A stretch of 64,000 nt of DNA from Bacteroidota bacterium (lineage in GTDB: Bacteria; Bacteroidota; Ignavibacteria; UBA10030; UBA6906). A program made the translations under genes and the position numbers. The notes under the pieces are model-generated. The model saw only the letters and a list, made by a program, of their open reading frames with translations, made no database searches and was not told where the DNA came from. Shown piece after piece: positions 856-62,571 of the stretch (positions within the stretch are counted from its first letter, which is position 1; each line of letters opens with the position of its first letter). The stretch spans positions 62,001 to 126,000 of the forward strand of contig JAHBUR010000012.1 of the NCBI GenBank assembly GCA_019637975.1, read 5' to 3'.

Positions 856-902
856 ATGACAACCAAAGGTCGTAGACTCGAAACAACATACACTTGCCTG
901 AT

Positions 903-2303
903 ATGCCGTACAATACACTTACTCCCGAGCTAACCGGTTCGTTCATTTCAATTGTTGGTGGTGAGAATGCTCTTACCGACGACGAGGCAAAATCCGTTTA
1001 CGGTCAGGATGAAACCGAGGACTTCTCATTTCCTCCCGAACTTATTCTCAAGCCATCAACGGCTCAGCAAGTTTCCGAAATCATGAAACTTGCACACCGG
1101 CATATTATTCCTGTTACACCGCGTGGCGGCGGTACGGGACTTTCGGGCGGAGCGTTGCCCGTACACGGGGGCATAGTACTTTCGATGGAGAAGTTCAATC
1201 GCATCATCGATATTGATGAGAAGAACTTTCAGGCAACAGTGGAACCGGGAGTCATCACCCAGATATTTCAGGAAGAATGCGAGAAGCGCGGACTCTACTA
1301 TCCACCCGATCCTTCATCACGCGGCAGCTCACAACTCGGCGGTAATCTCGCAGAATGTGCCGGTGGACCGAGGGCTGTAAAGTACGGTGTGACAAAGGAT
1401 TACGTGCTCGGCGTCGAAGCCGTTCTTCCAACGGGTGAGATCATCAACGCGGGCGGACGGGTCCTCAAGAATGTTTCCGGCTACAACCTGACGCAGTTGA
1501 TCGTCGGAAGTGAAGGAACGCTTGCCGTCATCACGAAAATACTTTTCCGTCTCATTCCTCTTCCACGAATGAAGAAGGTACTCCTCGTCCCCTTCAATTC
1601 TCTTGAGAATGCCGTAGCCGCAGTTGCTGTAATCTTTCAACGCGGCATTACACCGTCGGCGTTGGAGTTCATGGAACAAGCGGCAGTCAGGGCGGCAGAG
1701 ATGCAGTTGGGCAAGACTTTCCCGAATGGAACCGCCGAAGCGCAGCTTCTCATAGAGGTTGACGGCAACTACGAAGAGACACTCGCCAAGGACATCGATG
1801 TCATCGCCGAAGTCGTTGAAAAACACGGCGCCAGCAATGTGCTGCTTGCGGAAGATCGGCAGAAAATTGAAGATGTGTGGGCGCTCCGGCGAAGCATGGG
1901 CGAAGCGGTGAAGAAGATATCAACATATAAAGAAGAAGACACTGTCGTTCCCCGGGCTCATCTTCCGCAACTCATACGGGGAGTAAAGGAAATATGTGGG
2001 AGATACGGCATCACCTCCATTTGCTACGGTCACGCGGGTGATGGCAACGTTCACGTCAACATCCTCAAAGACAAGATGGATGATACAAAATGGGAGAAAC
2101 ACCTTGACACGGCCATTCGTGAGATATTTCGACTGACAGTCTCACTCGGAGGAACCATCTCCGGGGAGCATGGCATCGGCTACTCGCAGAAAGCGTATCT
2201 TCCCATTGCCCTCTCCCCCGCCGAACTCACTCTGATGAAAGAAATCAAACGGACGTTCGATCCCAACAATATTCTGAACCCGGGGAAGATATTCGAGTGT
2301 TGA
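903..2303 (+). CDS. glcD: FAD-linked oxidase, glycolate oxidase GlcD-like
   Basis: Two-domain flavoprotein of the vanillyl-alcohol-oxidase fold. The N-terminal FAD-binding domain carries the PRGGGTGLSGGALP loop near residue 75 and an SSQLGGNLAECAGGPRAVKYG segment that would contact FAD. The C-terminal FAD-oxidase cap contains GHAGDGNVHVN and ends with SGEHGIG and FDPNNILNPGKIF, the usual GlcD/D-lactate dehydrogenase signatures. It likely oxidises a 2-hydroxy acid such as glycolate or D-lactate and passes electrons to a quinone or an iron-sulfur partner. No GlcE or GlcF gene lies next to it, so the substrate is inferred from family only. The ATG at 903 is preferred; an in-frame TTG at 894 is an alternative. 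Confidence 0.85.
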   Translation: MPYNTLTPELTGSFISIVGGENALTDDEAKSVYGQDETEDFSFPPELILKPSTAQQVSEIMKLAHRHIIPVTPRGGGTGLSGGALPVHGGIVLSMEKFNRIIDIDEKNFQATVEPGVITQIFQEECEKRGLYYPPDPSSRGSSQLGGNLAECAGGPRAVKYGVTKDYVLGVEAVLPTGEIINAGGRVLKNVSGYNLTQLIVGSEGTLAVITKILFRLIPLPRMKKVLLVPFNSLENAVAAVAVIFQRGITPSALEFMEQAAVRAAEMQLGKTFPNGTAEAQLLIEVDGNYEETLAKDIDVIAEVVEKHGASNVLLAEDRQKIEDVWALRRSMGEAVKKISTYKEEDTVVPRAHLPQLIRGVKEICGRYGITSICYGHAGDGNVHVNILKDKMDDTKWEKHLDTAIREIFRLTVSLGGTISGEHGIGYSQKAYLPIALSPAELTLMKEIKRTFDPNNILNPGKIFEC

Positions 2304-2372: not shown

Positions 2373-3563
2373 CTACTTCGTCGGTGCCACGGCCAATCCC
2401 TCAGCAACTTCTGCTACTTCCTCTTTCACAGGCTTCGGCTCATGATGCACCTCATGCCCGAATACATTAAAGTACTTTGCCACAAATCCGAACGCAACAA
2501 ACCCGAACGCTACCAGACCGGCTGTGACAGCCAGTTCCTGCCACGAGGGAATGTACATGCGGTTCGGATATTGCTCCATGCTGGTGATCGCCGTGTTGAT
2601 GCGGTGAGCAATGAAACCAAGAATCACCAGAACAGACGAGTAGAATAATCCGGCTTTGTTTTCACGAATCTTCTTGCTCAGCAGCAGGAAGAATGGCACT
2701 ATCACCCCGAGAACAAGCTCTCCGGCAAACAGTATGCTCTGGTAGTTGATCTCGAATGCAAACTTCAGGGCATCCCGGGTAATCAAATCCTGTACGCGGA
2801 CAGTGAAGTAGAGAGCCAGTACAACGACAATCACTCGTGCCAACTCCGACAGCAGCGGCATCTCAATCTCCCGCCCGAATGCCCGTGACGAGAGGAATGA
2901 TTCAAATACTGTCATCGCCAATCCTGCGGCTACGCAGGAGATGATGAAGAGGAAGGGAATAATCTCGGAATACCACAGCGGATGCATCCGGCTCGGGATG
3001 ATGAGGAATAATGAGCCAAGCGACGACTGATGAAGCGTCGAAAGAATCACGCCCAACACCACCAACGGTATCGTAATAGCCTTGATGATCTTCAGCGGGC
3101 GTTCGAGATTGAAGCGCTCAAACACCACCGGACTGAATTCAAGCGCCAGCACTGTTGTGTACAACATCACGCACCACGCAACTTCGAACATCACCGAATG
3201 AGGATTCCAGTAGATCAGTGCATGCCAAATTGCCCAAGGGCGGCCAAGATCAACCATTAGTCCGGCAATGACGAGAAGATAGCCAAGAAATGCCGTCAGA
3301 ATCGTCGGACGTAAGATGGGACGAAACCGTTCGATGTTAAAAAGGTAGACGGTAGCAGCAATCGTGAAGCCGCCTGCCGCCAATCCGACACCGACCAGAA
3401 TGTCGAAGCCGATCCAGATGCCCCATGGAAACGTATCAACGAGGTTGGTGGATGGACCGAGGCCGGTTGAAAAGCGCCACACGGCGGCAATTGCGCCGGC
3501 GGTCATCAGCGCCACCGCAACCGCTTTCCAGAATGTAACCTTAAAGAGACCGGGAAAATTCAT
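2373..3563 (-). CDS. NrfD/HybB-type integral membrane quinone-interacting subunit
   Basis: A 396-residue, highly hydrophobic protein with about nine to ten predicted membrane segments. It matches the HybB/NrfD (PsrC-like) family, including the early FPWGIWIGFDILVGVGLAAGG segment and the DLGRPWAIWHAL loop typical of quinone-interacting membrane subunits. These proteins exchange electrons between an iron-sulfur subunit and the menaquinone pool. It is the last gene of a four-gene reverse-strand operon, 39 bases after the HybA-like gene, with an AAAGGA site 8 bases from the ATG. No hydrogenase, molybdopterin or cytochrome catalytic subunit is next to it, so the partner enzyme is unknown. The basic/acidic C-terminal tail (VHHEPKPVKEEV) is probably soluble. 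Confidence 0.88.
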   Translation of the reverse strand: MNFPGLFKVTFWKAVAVALMTAGAIAAVWRFSTGLGPSTNLVDTFPWGIWIGFDILVGVGLAAGGFTIAATVYLFNIERFRPILRPTILTAFLGYLLVIAGLMVDLGRPWAIWHALIYWNPHSVMFEVAWCVMLYTTVLALEFSPVVFERFNLERPLKIIKAITIPLVVLGVILSTLHQSSLGSLFLIIPSRMHPLWYSEIIPFLFIISCVAAGLAMTVFESFLSSRAFGREIEMPLLSELARVIVVVLALYFTVRVQDLITRDALKFAFEINYQSILFAGELVLGVIVPFFLLLSKKIRENKAGLFYSSVLVILGFIAHRINTAITSMEQYPNRMYIPSWQELAVTAGLVAFGFVAFGFVAKYFNVFGHEVHHEPKPVKEEVAEVAEGLAVAPTK

Positions 3564-3602: not shown

Positions 3603-4370
3603 CTAGTTGTGCAATTCCTGCTTTTGTTTCTCTTCCGCTTCAAACCGGGCTACTTCGGTGCGTCGCTTGGTAATCCAGTTGATACCAAACAATACGACAC
3701 CCGCCGCAACCGAGTATTTCGGAATCTGCGAAAGCACTCGCCACGACAGCTCGGGAATCGGATTCTTCGGGACATTCATCGGGAAGCCCAATTCCTCGAA
3801 CGGGACATTGGAGATGAACATCACTGCCGTCCCGCCCGCCTCATGCAAACCGTAGATATAGTCGATGTACTCGCCCGGATTCTCGTCAATACGTCTGCGG
3901 GCTTCCTTGATCAACTCATCACGATCGCCGAATACCGTCGCTTCAACAGGGCATGCCTCGGAGCAGGCCGTTTGTCCGCCTGCGGCAACAAGCTCGTAGC
4001 ACATTTTGCATTTCTGCACCCGCGGCGACAAGCTTGTCCACTCGTACCGGGGCACTTCAAACGGGCAGGCCTGCATGCAGTACCGGCAACCAATGCACTT
4101 CGATTCGTCGTACAGAACCGCGCCGGTTTCGGTTTTCGTGAACGCCCCGACGAGGCAGGCAGAAACGCAAGTCGGTTGTTCACAGTGCATGCACATGCGT
4201 CGGACGTATGTCTGGTCGTTGTTGTAGCTCTGCACAACCGTGTAGTGTGTTGCGGAAAGCTCGGTCGCTTCCTCTTCCGGAAGATGATTTGTTACGGCGC
4301 AGGCACGGCTGCATTCCCCGCAACCCACGCATCGTGTGATGTCGATGAGCAATCCTTTTGATTTACGCAT
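3603..4370 (-). CDS. HybA-like 4Fe-4S ferredoxin subunit with C-terminal membrane anchor
   Basis: Ferredoxin with the cysteine pattern for four [4Fe-4S] clusters: CVGCGECSRAC, CMHCEQPTCVSAC, CIGCRYCMQAC and CKMCYEL...CSEAC. This is the HybA/DmsB/PsrB electron-transfer family. A hydrophobic helix near the C-terminus (VAAGVVLFGINWI) should anchor it in the membrane, as in HybA. No Tat or Sec signal is visible at the N-terminus, so the clusters may face the cytoplasm, unlike periplasmic HybA; this is inference. The ATG at 4370 has a GGAG 9 bases upstream and is preferred over the ATG at 4385. The start overlaps the end of the upstream GcvH-like gene by 8 bases. It likely passes electrons to the NrfD-type subunit encoded next. 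Confidence 0.88.
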   Translation of the reverse strand: MRKSKGLLIDITRCVGCGECSRACAVTNHLPEEEATELSATHYTVVQSYNNDQTYVRRMCMHCEQPTCVSACLVGAFTKTETGAVLYDESKCIGCRYCMQACPFEVPRYEWTSLSPRVQKCKMCYELVAAGGQTACSEACPVEATVFGDRDELIKEARRRIDENPGEYIDYIYGLHEAGGTAVMFISNVPFEELGFPMNVPKNPIPELSWRVLSQIPKYSVAAGVVLFGINWITKRRTEVARFEAEEKQKQELHN

Positions 4371-5067
4371 TGTCGTATTCTCCATTCAATGGCGTTTCAC
4401 TTTCAGTGGTGAGAAATGTTGATTCGAACTCTTCCCACACGCGTTCATCGAATTCTTTCAGTACACCCGCTGCCGGAACGCCGCCATCCTGCATGGCCGC
4501 AAATTCGAGCTGCGGCACGCGGGCGACGAGAAATTCTTTCACCAGATCATTCTGCTTCTTCAGCCATTCGATGGCTCGTTCACCACTCAGGAATGACGTC
4601 AACGAACGGGCTCCGTCTGCCGGAATCAGCTTGAACAGCCATCCCGTCGTATAGGGATTCTGCGACGCCATTGACGGCGATTGCAGTGCTGAGTGATTGA
4701 TTGCCGATATTTGTCCCTCAAACGGCATATCAAGGGCGAGACTCTTGTTCTTTTCCCGAAGGACAATCGGCCTTTCGCCTCGGCCGACAATCTGGCCTTC
4801 TCTCGGCAGCTCAATTCGCTCGACCTTTCCCGTCAAGCCGAACAGGAAGTTGTCAATACCGACAGTGATGCTGTTGTCTCGCTCGCGCCTCATCCACAAG
4901 TGGTTGGGAGCAAGAACCAGATCATCCGACAAATTCCAATGTGATGCAGGGAAAAGCGGTGTTGAACGCAGCGCCGCCGTGCTGAGCGCTTTTTGTTTTC
5001 TCCGCTGAACAATGTAGTCGGCTGCGAGAAATGCGATTAATGTTAAGAGTACGAGTAAGACTGTCAT
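4363..5067 (-). CDS. membrane-anchored GcvH-fold protein lacking the lipoyl lysine (copy 2)
   Basis: An N-terminal membrane helix (MTVLLVLLTLIAFLAADYIV) is followed by a domain with the layout of glycine-cleavage H protein: an HLWMR...ITVGIDNFLFGLTGKVERIELP segment, then MPFEGQISAIN, NPYTTGWLFKL and a C-terminal helical part. In true H proteins a lysine sits seven residues before the APVSG-like motif and carries lipoate. Here that position is asparagine, flanked by lysines one residue either side (KNK), so normal lipoylation is doubtful. A second gene of the same type precedes it and redox genes follow, which suggests an accessory or assembly part of the HybA/HybB-like complex rather than glycine cleavage. 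AAGGAG lies 7 bases before the start. Confidence 0.8.
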   Translation of the reverse strand: MTVLLVLLTLIAFLAADYIVQRRKQKALSTAALRSTPLFPASHWNLSDDLVLAPNHLWMRRERDNSITVGIDNFLFGLTGKVERIELPREGQIVGRGERPIVLREKNKSLALDMPFEGQISAINHSALQSPSMASQNPYTTGWLFKLIPADGARSLTSFLSGERAIEWLKKQNDLVKEFLVARVPQLEFAAMQDGGVPAAGVLKEFDERVWEEFESTFLTTESETPLNGEYDNA

Positions 5068-5098
5068 GTTAGGATCTCCTTAGTTTGATACTATGTGT

Positions 5099-5758
5099 TC
5101 ACCATTGAGGAACTGATTTCTTCGAATGCAGGTTGTCGCCTGCCTGATCGCCGGTGAGGAAAAACTCCCTCTCAAGCGTATTCCATTCTTCATCCGACAC
5201 CTTGTCTGCCAGATCTTTCACGATCACGCCTCCGTCCTGATACATGAGGGCCGGGGTTGTCGAGAAAATCCGAACGAGTTGTTCTTTTGCCTGCTCAAGC
5301 CATTGCTGCATCGCTTTTCCCGTAAACAGGTTATTGAGTTGCGCGTGCAACTTCATCGGGCGAATGCGCAGCAACCAACCGTCGTTGTACGGCGAGGAAT
5401 TGACGAGCAACGGATTGTTTAGCACCATTTCATTCTTCTCAATTACCCTTCCGCTCACCGGGCTCACCATCCGTACAACTCGATTCCCATGTCTGACGGA
5501 CCACGCGACACTGCCCTGCCCGACTCGCCTCAGCAATCGCGGCAGTTCCACTGAATCAATCGTGCCGATAAGCGATTGGGCAAACTCGTCAACTCCGACA
5601 AGCACGTCTCCGTCCTCGGTCATTTTCATCCATGTGTGGCCCGGATGTACATACCGTCGGACAAACACAGGTTGCGTTTCTTCCTTCTTCTTCGTTTTGC
5701 GAAACATTCCCCAAACGATGAGCGCGCAAGCAGTCAAGAATGCAAGTATCGCTGACAT
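5099..5758 (-). CDS. membrane-anchored GcvH-fold protein lacking the lipoyl lysine (copy 1)
   Basis: First gene of the four-gene redox operon and paralogue of the next gene. An N-terminal membrane helix (ILAFLTACALIVWGMF) and a basic stop-transfer stretch (RKTKKKEE) precede an H-protein-like domain with HTWMKMTEDGDVLVGVDEFA, SPVSGRVIEKN and NSSPYNDGWLLRI. The position of the lipoyl lysine is asparagine in a GNR context and no lysine lies close by. The ATG at 5758 follows GGAG with good spacing; a longer in-frame ORF starts 22 codons earlier but adds only a charged, unlikely N-terminus. The function is inferred from context only: part of a membrane electron-transfer complex. Confidence 0.8.
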   Translation of the reverse strand: MSAILAFLTACALIVWGMFRKTKKKEETQPVFVRRYVHPGHTWMKMTEDGDVLVGVDEFAQSLIGTIDSVELPRLLRRVGQGSVAWSVRHGNRVVRMVSPVSGRVIEKNEMVLNNPLLVNSSPYNDGWLLRIRPMKLHAQLNNLFTGKAMQQWLEQAKEQLVRIFSTTPALMYQDGGVIVKDLADKVSDEEWNTLEREFFLTGDQAGDNLHSKKSVPQW

Positions 5759-6166
5759 GTTGGGCTCCTTTCTTTCTTTTCTGTTCTTGATGTAAGATTG
5801 ACTTCTGAACTTCACAACAATCATACTTCCAATAACCCTGCCAGAAACAAGCTTTGCAAAAAGAAACGACGCCTCTTTAACTCATTGTTACACAATAGGT
5901 TACAAACTGATTGGTGCGGATTCCAGCCACAGGAATTCGGAAAAAAACTCTTGTGTTGAATCATGCAACACCAGTCAATCAGTGAAGACGCGTCAGTCAT
6001 GCCATTGATATTGAGATATAACGAGTTACGATGATGTTAGAATTTTCAACAGAAAATTGAAGAACTCAACACGAAATTTTCCACGCTTTCAGTATACGCT
6101 ACTGTTCACTTCTTCCATACCATCGCATTTCTTCTTATTTTGTTTTTTTGAATTCTGGAGAATGTG
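5759..6166. promoter_or_regulatory. divergent intergenic region
   Basis: About 400 bases without a gene, more AT-rich than its surroundings, separating the reverse-strand redox operon from the forward-strand NHL lipoprotein gene. Promoters for both must lie here, but no convincing -35/-10 pair could be assigned. The only symmetrical element noticed is GTGTTG-7-CAACAC at 5953-5971, a possible small operator. Confidence 0.4.
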
Positions 6167-61590: not shown

Positions 61591-62571
61591 TTAAAAAATG
61601 GTACTTCTCGTCCACGTCTCGAGTACATCTTCTTCAGCCGGCAGAATGTGCGTGCCGGATTTTCCTTCAATTGCATCATACAAATGTTCAATATCGCTGA
61701 TGACCGCTTGCTTGCCGCCGCGTTCGAGGTAAAGAAGCGCCGCTTTTACTTTCGGACCCATGTTGCCTTCCGGAAACTGACCTTCTTTGTAATAGTTTCT
61801 GCATTCCTCCGCCGTGATCGCTTCGAGCTTGCGCTGCGTTGGCTTCTGATAATCAACGTAGACGTACTCGACTTCCGTCGCAATCGCAAACACGTCAGCG
61901 TTGAGATGTGTTGCAAGAAGCGAAGAAGTCAAGTCTTTGTCTATGACGGCCTCCACACCCTTCTCTGTAACGTGATCATTCAGAACGGGAATACCGCCGC
62001 CGCCACCTGCAATCACGACTAAACCTCTGTTTACGCACGCCCGAATGGCGTCGAGTTCGATGATTTCCTTCGGTTCAGGAGATGAAACAACGCGGCGATA
62101 CCCGTGGGAATCCTCAATCATCTCCCATTTCATCTGATGCTGGTAGCGTTCGGCGACTTCCTTCGTGTAGAACGGCCCGATTGGTTTTGTATGATGATCG
62201 AATGCAGGATCGTGCTTATCAACACGGACTTGCGTTATGAGCGAGACAACCGGGACGTAAACCTGCATTTTCTGCATCATCTGCCACATGGCATATTGCA
62301 GGTAGTAGCCGATTTCTCCTTGTGTTGCCGCCACACAGACGTCAAGCGGCATGCGGTACGAATGATGCGCCGCCAACTCCGATCGAGTCAATGCCGCCCC
62401 GACCTGCGGGCCGTTGCCGTGCGTCAGCACGACGCGATGGCCTGCTTTGATAAGCCGGACCACCGTTGTTGCAGTGTCAATGGCATTCTGAAATTGCAAT
62501 TCGGCTGTGCCGACTTCATTGGCCTTGATCAAGGCGTTCCCCCCTACTGCTAACAGCACCAGCTTCGACAT
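61591..62571 (-). CDS. arcC: carbamate kinase
   Basis: Amino-acid-kinase fold: LVLLAVGGNALIKANE at the start, LTHGNGPQVGAAL near residue 50, VIAGGGGGIPVLN near 190 and AVIDKDLTSSLLAT near 215 (substrate and nucleotide binding). It would form ATP from carbamoyl phosphate, releasing ammonia and CO2, or the reverse. The ATG at 62571 follows AGGTGA 5 bases away; a GTG one codon earlier is possible. It lies four bases after the argF stop and is co-transcribed with it. Confidence 0.9.
   Translation of the reverse strand: MSKLVLLAVGGNALIKANEVGTAELQFQNAIDTATTVVRLIKAGHRVVLTHGNGPQVGAALTRSELAAHHSYRMPLDVCVAATQGEIGYYLQYAMWQMMQKMQVYVPVVSLITQVRVDKHDPAFDHHTKPIGPFYTKEVAERYQHQMKWEMIEDSHGYRRVVSSPEPKEIIELDAIRACVNRGLVVIAGGGGGIPVLNDHVTEKGVEAVIDKDLTSSLLATHLNADVFAIATEVEYVYVDYQKPTQRKLEAITAEECRNYYKEGQFPEGNMGPKVKAALLYLERGGKQAVISDIEHLYDAIEGKSGTHILPAEEDVLETWTRSTIF

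Follow-up and report, generated by a model that had tools for sequence, protein, structure and literature searches.

The 64,000-nucleotide stretch analysed here (hereafter the window; positions 62,001 to 126,000 of contig JAHBUR010000012.1 from a Bacteroidota bacterium) contains an operon of four genes (Table 1). Two of them, which we call GHa and GHb, encode membrane-anchored proteins predicted to have the fold of the glycine cleavage H-protein (GcvH) without its lipoyl lysine; we use GH for proteins of this kind. They are followed by a HybA-like subunit, with several Fer4 Pfam matches and four Cys groups, and by a HybB-like subunit of the NrfD type (together, HybAB). The intergenic distances are 31 nt, -23 nt (an overlap), and 39 nt, and the GHa start codon, ATG at 5758, is preceded by AGGAG. 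No catalytic gene adjoins the operon, and the flanking genes lie on the opposite strand. The initial annotation had described a GH pair heading an operon with a four-cluster ferredoxin and an NrfD-type subunit, without a catalytic subunit, and the gene order together with the Fer4 and NrfD matches in Pfam agrees with this.

Table 1. Features of the GH operon in the window and of the kinase cassettes elsewhere in the same genome.
Feature	Position	Strand	Basis
GHa: predicted transmembrane helix, H-protein fold (N for lipoyl Lys), C-terminal DGG segment	5099..5758	-	Pfam GCV_H 8e-23, model
GHb: as GHa, predicted transmembrane helix, H-protein fold (N for lipoyl Lys), C-terminal DGG segment	4363..5067	-	Pfam GCV_H 2.3e-13, model
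HybA/HmcB-like four-cluster ferredoxin subunit; C-terminal hydrophobic segment, without twin-arginine translocation (TAT) signal	3603..4385	-	NCBIfam HmcB/HybA scores, sequence
HybB/HmcC-like NrfD-type integral membrane quinone-interacting subunit	2373..3563	-	Pfam NrfD 1.9e-29, NCBIfam scores
Predicted sigma-54 (-24/-12) promoter TGGCAGGGTTATTGGA, 69 bp upstream of the GHa ATG	5828..5843	-	TGGCAN6TTGSA sequence match
Perfect dyad GTGTTG-N7-CAACAC, putative NtrC-type enhancer (upstream activating sequence)	5953..5971	.	motif counts in relatives
Own-genome cassette: di-heme kinase, NtrC, archaemetzincin	C34 (L006 5529-9102)		
Own-genome cassette: di-heme kinase, NtrC, archaemetzincin	C31 (L189 5869-9408)		

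GHa and GHb both pass the curated cut-off of Pfam GCV_H; the TIGR00527 gcvH equivalog cut-off of 115.85 bits is missed by the pair (52.8 and 73.2 bits). AlphaFold2 models, with predicted local distance difference test scores of 87.7 (GHa) and 88.0 (GHb), contain a complete H-protein fold in each protein, preceded by a single N-terminal helix (residues 4-27 in one, 2-35 in the other). In structure comparisons GHa matches the pea H-protein (1htp) with Z 19.0 and GHb the E. coli H-protein with Z 16.5, at 24-30% identity across about 125 residues; matches other than H-proteins (biotin carboxyl carrier protein, lipoyl domains) have Z of about 4-6 and reflect the common barrel-sandwich arrangement. 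When aligned to solved H-proteins, both have asparagine in the column of the lipoyl lysine (ESVK), as ...RHGN-RVV in GHa, with Arg at +1, and as ...REKN-KSL in GHb, whose hairpin thus reads KNK. The fold, the membrane helix, and the asparagine proposed in the initial annotation are accordingly borne out for both reading frames. Because the defining lipoyl lysine is absent, we do not consider GHa and GHb to be H-proteins in function; a canonical gcvH, with the motif EAVKAVS, is found separately in the same genome (C12:6250). A basic stretch directly follows each transmembrane helix (RKTKKK, QRRKQK) and, by the positive-inside rule, predicts that the bulk of both proteins is in the cytosol, as do receiver domains fused on the same side in relatives. 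No receiver domain was detected by Pfam in GHa or GHb themselves, which consist of the transmembrane helix and the GH domain only.

Relatives were gathered from 198 genomes of the phylum, with 20 regions fetched, and from one scan of GTDB contigs for a motif characteristic of non-canonical domains, the best 80 of which were kept and are therefore not an unbiased sample. According to their record titles, they belong to the Ignavibacteriota, Bacteroidales, Prolixibacteraceae, Methylomirabilota, Betaproteobacteria, Acidobacteriota, Gemmatimonadota, Desulfobacterota, KSB1, and Neomarinimicrobiota. Their loci encode 199 distinct domains, 7 canonical and 192 non-canonical, and the two kinds split in a tree with support 0.964 (27 canonical sequences, including 20 added gcvH neighbourhoods); clades of first- and second-position GH did not resolve cleanly. 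A lysine occupies the aligned column in 11 of the 192 non-canonical domains, mostly in a hairpin of the G-K-K/R type, and the E-x-x-K lipoylation motif is found in none (0/192). Many of these domains have a basic residue at +1 (Lys in 82, Arg in 39), which could suggest that GHa and GHb still carry lipoate on the adjacent lysine of KNK, as ordinary lipoyl relays; we find this very improbable, since the +1 residue is often arginine, as in GHa, which cannot be lipoylated, and the recognition motif is missing throughout. Loss of the active lysine could likewise indicate that the pair are functionless, decayed gcvH paralogues travelling with HybAB. This is scarcely credible for a deep separate clade in which the H/W/G/P fold residues and the DGG tail are invariant, which is conserved across phyla, and whose members in the window are 95-96% identical to their counterparts in a congener.

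Some GH proteins, of the GH2-type, C34, and Desulfobacterota kinds, share a four-cysteine motif, CxWMxxGVxxYKLCDxxYDCxxC. GH could use this motif to hold a cargo other than lipoate (a bound sulfur species, a metal, or a cluster) and deliver it to the membrane module, much as lipoyl-binding GcvH relatives (LbpA) act in sulfur oxidation (PMC6067878). However, the motif is absent from GHa and GHb, and no match to a known metal-carrier family was found in Pfam or NCBIfam; we regard such a role as improbable. In Desulfobacterota loci, including L127 (7049-8050), a GH with two of these motifs is encoded beside a kinase, an NtrC-type regulator, and an archaemetzincin, without HybA/HybB.

The gene neighbourhood of GH is conserved. 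Of the 80 GTDB loci, 58 have a same-strand NrfD-type gene no more than 5 kb away, as do all 20 phylum loci, compared with 0 of 20 canonical gcvH controls; because the association recurs in many phyla, we do not ascribe it to chance. A lack of conservation in such a survey had been named in the initial annotation as evidence that would count against it, and the opposite was observed. Over 52 genomes, a HybB-like gene and an extra GH occur together in 26, GH only in 2, HybB only in 3, and neither in 21 (p = 2.5e-9). A kinase is found near GH in 59/80 GTDB loci and 15/20 phylum loci. NrfD in general was rejected as the partner of GH, which is missing from three other NrfD loci in the same genome (judged by content, two are ACIII-like and one is Psr-like). 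A hydrogenase partner was rejected as well: the NiFe large subunits of this genome are encoded elsewhere, distant from any NrfD gene, and the link to a hydrogen complex that the initial annotation had allowed for is unlikely.

GH operons are of several types. Type I comprises a transmembrane GH, HybA, HybB, a second GH, a histidine kinase, an NtrC-type regulator, and a gene of about 178 amino acids of the archaemetzincin family. In type II, a Qrc-like operon lies between GH genes (with the joined form in L053, L060, and L062). Type III contains HybA, HybB, a 13-heme cytochrome, a kinase, and two receiver-GH fusions, and has no NtrC; the receiver active-site pattern is intact in all 46 receiver-GH fusion proteins. 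In the Bacteroidales, the first GH protein has a large N-terminal region ahead of the transmembrane helix; Pfam gave no name to this region, and our guess is that it resembles a periplasmic substrate-binding domain. The genome of the window also has a Qrc-like operon, split, apparently by assembly, over the contig ends C46 (L007 12953-17630) and C34 (L006 1-2293). Its QrcA (211 bits; cut-off 180) and QrcD (577; 570) pass, its QrcB (312; 440) falls below; encoded on its flanks are two GH proteins, together with a small transmembrane protein sharing the DGG motif. Small transmembrane proteins with a tail TMADGG motif like that at GH C-termini, and without an H-protein domain, are encoded in L053 (16461-16760) and L062 (12386-12667).

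The placement of GH genes on both sides of HybAB and of the Qrc-like operon is what might be expected if GHa and GHb served an NrfD-type quinone oxidoreductase as structural subunits or in its assembly, capping or stabilising the cytosolic side of HybB/QrcD, with no part in signalling and with the kinase cassette controlling expression only. There is a precedent for a cofactor-free lipoyl-like barrel-sandwich domain in NqrA (a weak Pfam match), and a sigma-54-controlled operon need not encode signalling products. On the other hand, GH occurs with the kinase cassette in the absence of HybA/HybB, with di-heme kinases in L066, L070, and L078 and with kinases devoid of heme motifs in the Desulfobacterota loci. 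In two genomes (L182, L183), no GH and no kinase was detected near HybA-HybB-13-heme cytochrome operons. The presence of GH follows that of the kinase cassette no less closely than that of HybAB. Fusion to receivers, and in the Bacteroidales to a large N-terminal region through the transmembrane helix, likewise fits poorly with a purely structural subunit, which we consider a possible but rather unlikely explanation. Of the proposal in the initial annotation, the reuse of a lipoyl scaffold without lipoate beside an NrfD-type module stands; its assignment as a structural part of a respiratory, sulfur, or hydrogen complex is only one option. Kinase cassettes without HybAB, the GH-less operons of L182 and L183, the receiver fusions, and the promoter and enhancer in the window suggest a signalling role, either alone or in addition.

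Upstream of the kinase core, 73 of the 78 kinases near GH contain CxxCH and Cx4CH, located between two predicted transmembrane helices in the examples inspected. The archaemetzincin (M54) is found in 13 of 52 genomes, among them each of the 12 that have type I or type II operons, and by our tally the number of archaemetzincin cassettes equals that of type I/II operons in 11 of these 12. No kinase cassette lies beside the window operon; two are located elsewhere in the genome (Table 1), and the archaemetzincin of the C34 cassette scores above the NCBIfam cut-off (161.9 vs 145). The cassette is also detached from the GH operon in the congener (G055) and in genome G156 (detached loci: L189 in the genome of the window, L190, and L191).

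The genome encodes sigma-54 (rpoN), and the putative promoter TGGCAGGGTTATTGGA is the sole TGGCAN6TTGSA match in the window and is conserved in the congener; since at least one match somewhere is expected in about one-third of whole-window shuffles, its weight rests on its position and conservation. Elements of this class lie no more than 150 bp from the start in 41 of 85 GH operons, as compared with 10 of 564 other genes and 0.6% of shuffles, and are found in 28 of 40 GH-first operons with NtrC and in 1 of 21 receiver-type operons. The GTGTTG-N7-CAACAC dyad (up to two mismatches) is present in 31/44 of the GH operons that have NtrC, in 0/20 of those of the receiver type, and in 18/552 control genes; it was discovered and counted on overlapping operon sets, so that its p-value is partly circular, the figures are somewhat optimistic, and 0/20 is the fairer contrast. 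A wider dyad regulon is not supported: the genome has three perfect sites, but sites with at most one mismatch number 24, versus 19 for a reversed-pattern control. The window operon has both the promoter and the dyad typical of its kinase-bearing relatives and is predicted, from the -24/-12 sequence, to be under sigma-54/NtrC control.

Two other gene sets can be mentioned here. A multiheme cytochrome cluster in the same genome (L208 432-15042; C4:144-159k), with cytochromes of 13, 19, 6, and 11 CxxCH motifs, also contains Rieske-like, cytochrome-b-like, UspA-like, and NtrC-like regulator genes, along with sigma-54-like sites and a sequence close to that of the dyad. In the window, a GlcD-type FAD-linked oxidase (894-2303, plus strand) is convergent with the GH operon, and nothing ties it to the operon.

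GH keeps company with the kinase cassette, relatives have it fused to receivers, and in the window it shares the promoter type of kinase-bearing operons. For these reasons we prefer, with roughly even confidence, an adaptor reading to a purely structural subunit: an H-protein fold free of lipoate, tethered to the membrane on its cytosolic side, would have been reused to link quinone modules of the NrfD type to a sigma-54 circuit that senses redox state. What the sequences show is the fold, the lost lipoyl lysine, the membrane anchors, the operon and its conserved neighbourhood, the di-heme motifs, the receiver fusions, the promoter, and the dyad; from these we infer an electron path, contacts of GH with the kinase or HybAB, a direction of control, a role for the protease, and the adaptor step itself. 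Of a redox-signalling system in two parts, the window operon would form the membrane half, in which HybB would exchange electrons with menaquinol and pass them on to the HybA-like iron-sulfur subunit. From the cytosolic face, the GH pair could couple this module to a histidine kinase whose di-heme sensor would be periplasmic and which would be supplied in trans by the cassettes at C31 and C34. The kinase would phosphorylate the NtrC-type activator, which would bind the dyad and drive the sigma-54 promoter of the GH operon, and the resulting feedback loop may sense the redox state of the quinone pool or the periplasm. In type III operons, which have no NtrC, it could be the receiver-bearing GH that is phosphorylated and, as the output, acts on the complex.

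Several observations weigh against this adaptor reading. Type III and Qrc-type operons carry cytochromes, and their modules may therefore simply respire. The five kinases without heme motifs (of 78) are those of the Desulfobacterota loci, where HybA/HybB are absent as well, and genome G184 has a cassette of di-heme kinase, NtrC, and archaemetzincin (L192 5201-8692) with no extra GH detected in the genome. The window HybA lacks the TAT signal that most relatives have, and its clusters may consequently be cytosolic, in which case direct electron transfer to a periplasmic heme would be impossible; judged from its sequence, the membrane side of this subunit is uncertain. In addition, loci cut by contig ends were pooled with the others in the counts, and the circularity of the dyad figures belongs here too.

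If correct, the adaptor reading would provide a testable gene set for reporting the redox state of the quinone pool or periplasm to sigma-54 transcription in anaerobes and facultative anaerobes of many phyla, and it suggests a lipoyl fold at work without lipoate. More tentatively, with the balance somewhat against it, the lipoate-stripped H-protein fold could be a new class of signal transducer, the output or adaptor domain of a multi-phylum membrane redox-sensing circuit that combines quinone modules, di-heme kinases, sigma-54 regulators, and archaemetzincin. Named strains such as Sunxiuqinia dokdonensis (L118) and Geothrix rubra (L140) encode GH and would allow tests outside metagenome bins and uncultured organisms. 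Annotation by fold only would yield "glycine cleavage system protein H", which is misleading for metabolic reconstructions. In a limited search of the open-access literature, we found no description of the GH-HybAB-kinase-NtrC-archaemetzincin set; within this scope, which did not extend to subscription journals, no paper combined GcvH with either NrfD or the Qrc complex, and those that matched GcvH plus "receiver domain", or archaemetzincin plus operon, were, judged by title, on other subjects.

Among known systems, GH shares the complete fold of GcvH (PF01597, TIGR00527; Z 16-19) but differs in the missing lipoyl lysine and E-x-x-K motif, the membrane helix, the C-terminal DGG segment, and the separate clade, and no glycine-cleavage genes adjoin it. 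LbpA and GcvH-L (TIGR03077) are, like GH, GcvH relatives outside glycine cleavage and in redox gene clusters. The lipoyl lysine is strictly conserved in LbpA of the sHdr sulfur-oxidation system (PMC6067878), and GH, which lacks it, is therefore not LbpA; no hdr cluster was seen in the GH neighbourhoods read, though no search for HdrA/B/C was made. With NtrC-type two-component systems the GH set shares the kinase, the AAA+ regulator, the -24/-12 promoter, and the upstream dyad, and it differs in the di-heme sensor motifs, the archaemetzincin in the cassette, and the recurrent GH and HybAB partners. The membrane subunits score below the NCBIfam equivalog cut-offs for HybA (209 bits vs 263) and HybB (316 vs 450) of hydrogenase 2, whose HybO/HybC genes the operon lacks, and for HmcB (258 vs 420) and HmcC (305 vs 550) of the Hmc complex; the HybA-like protein is thus a relative, rather than an equivalog, of HmcB/HybA. 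Compared with HybA/HybB, HmcB/HmcC, and QrcABCD, the window operon adds the GH genes, and it is this gene set that the signalling cassette joins.
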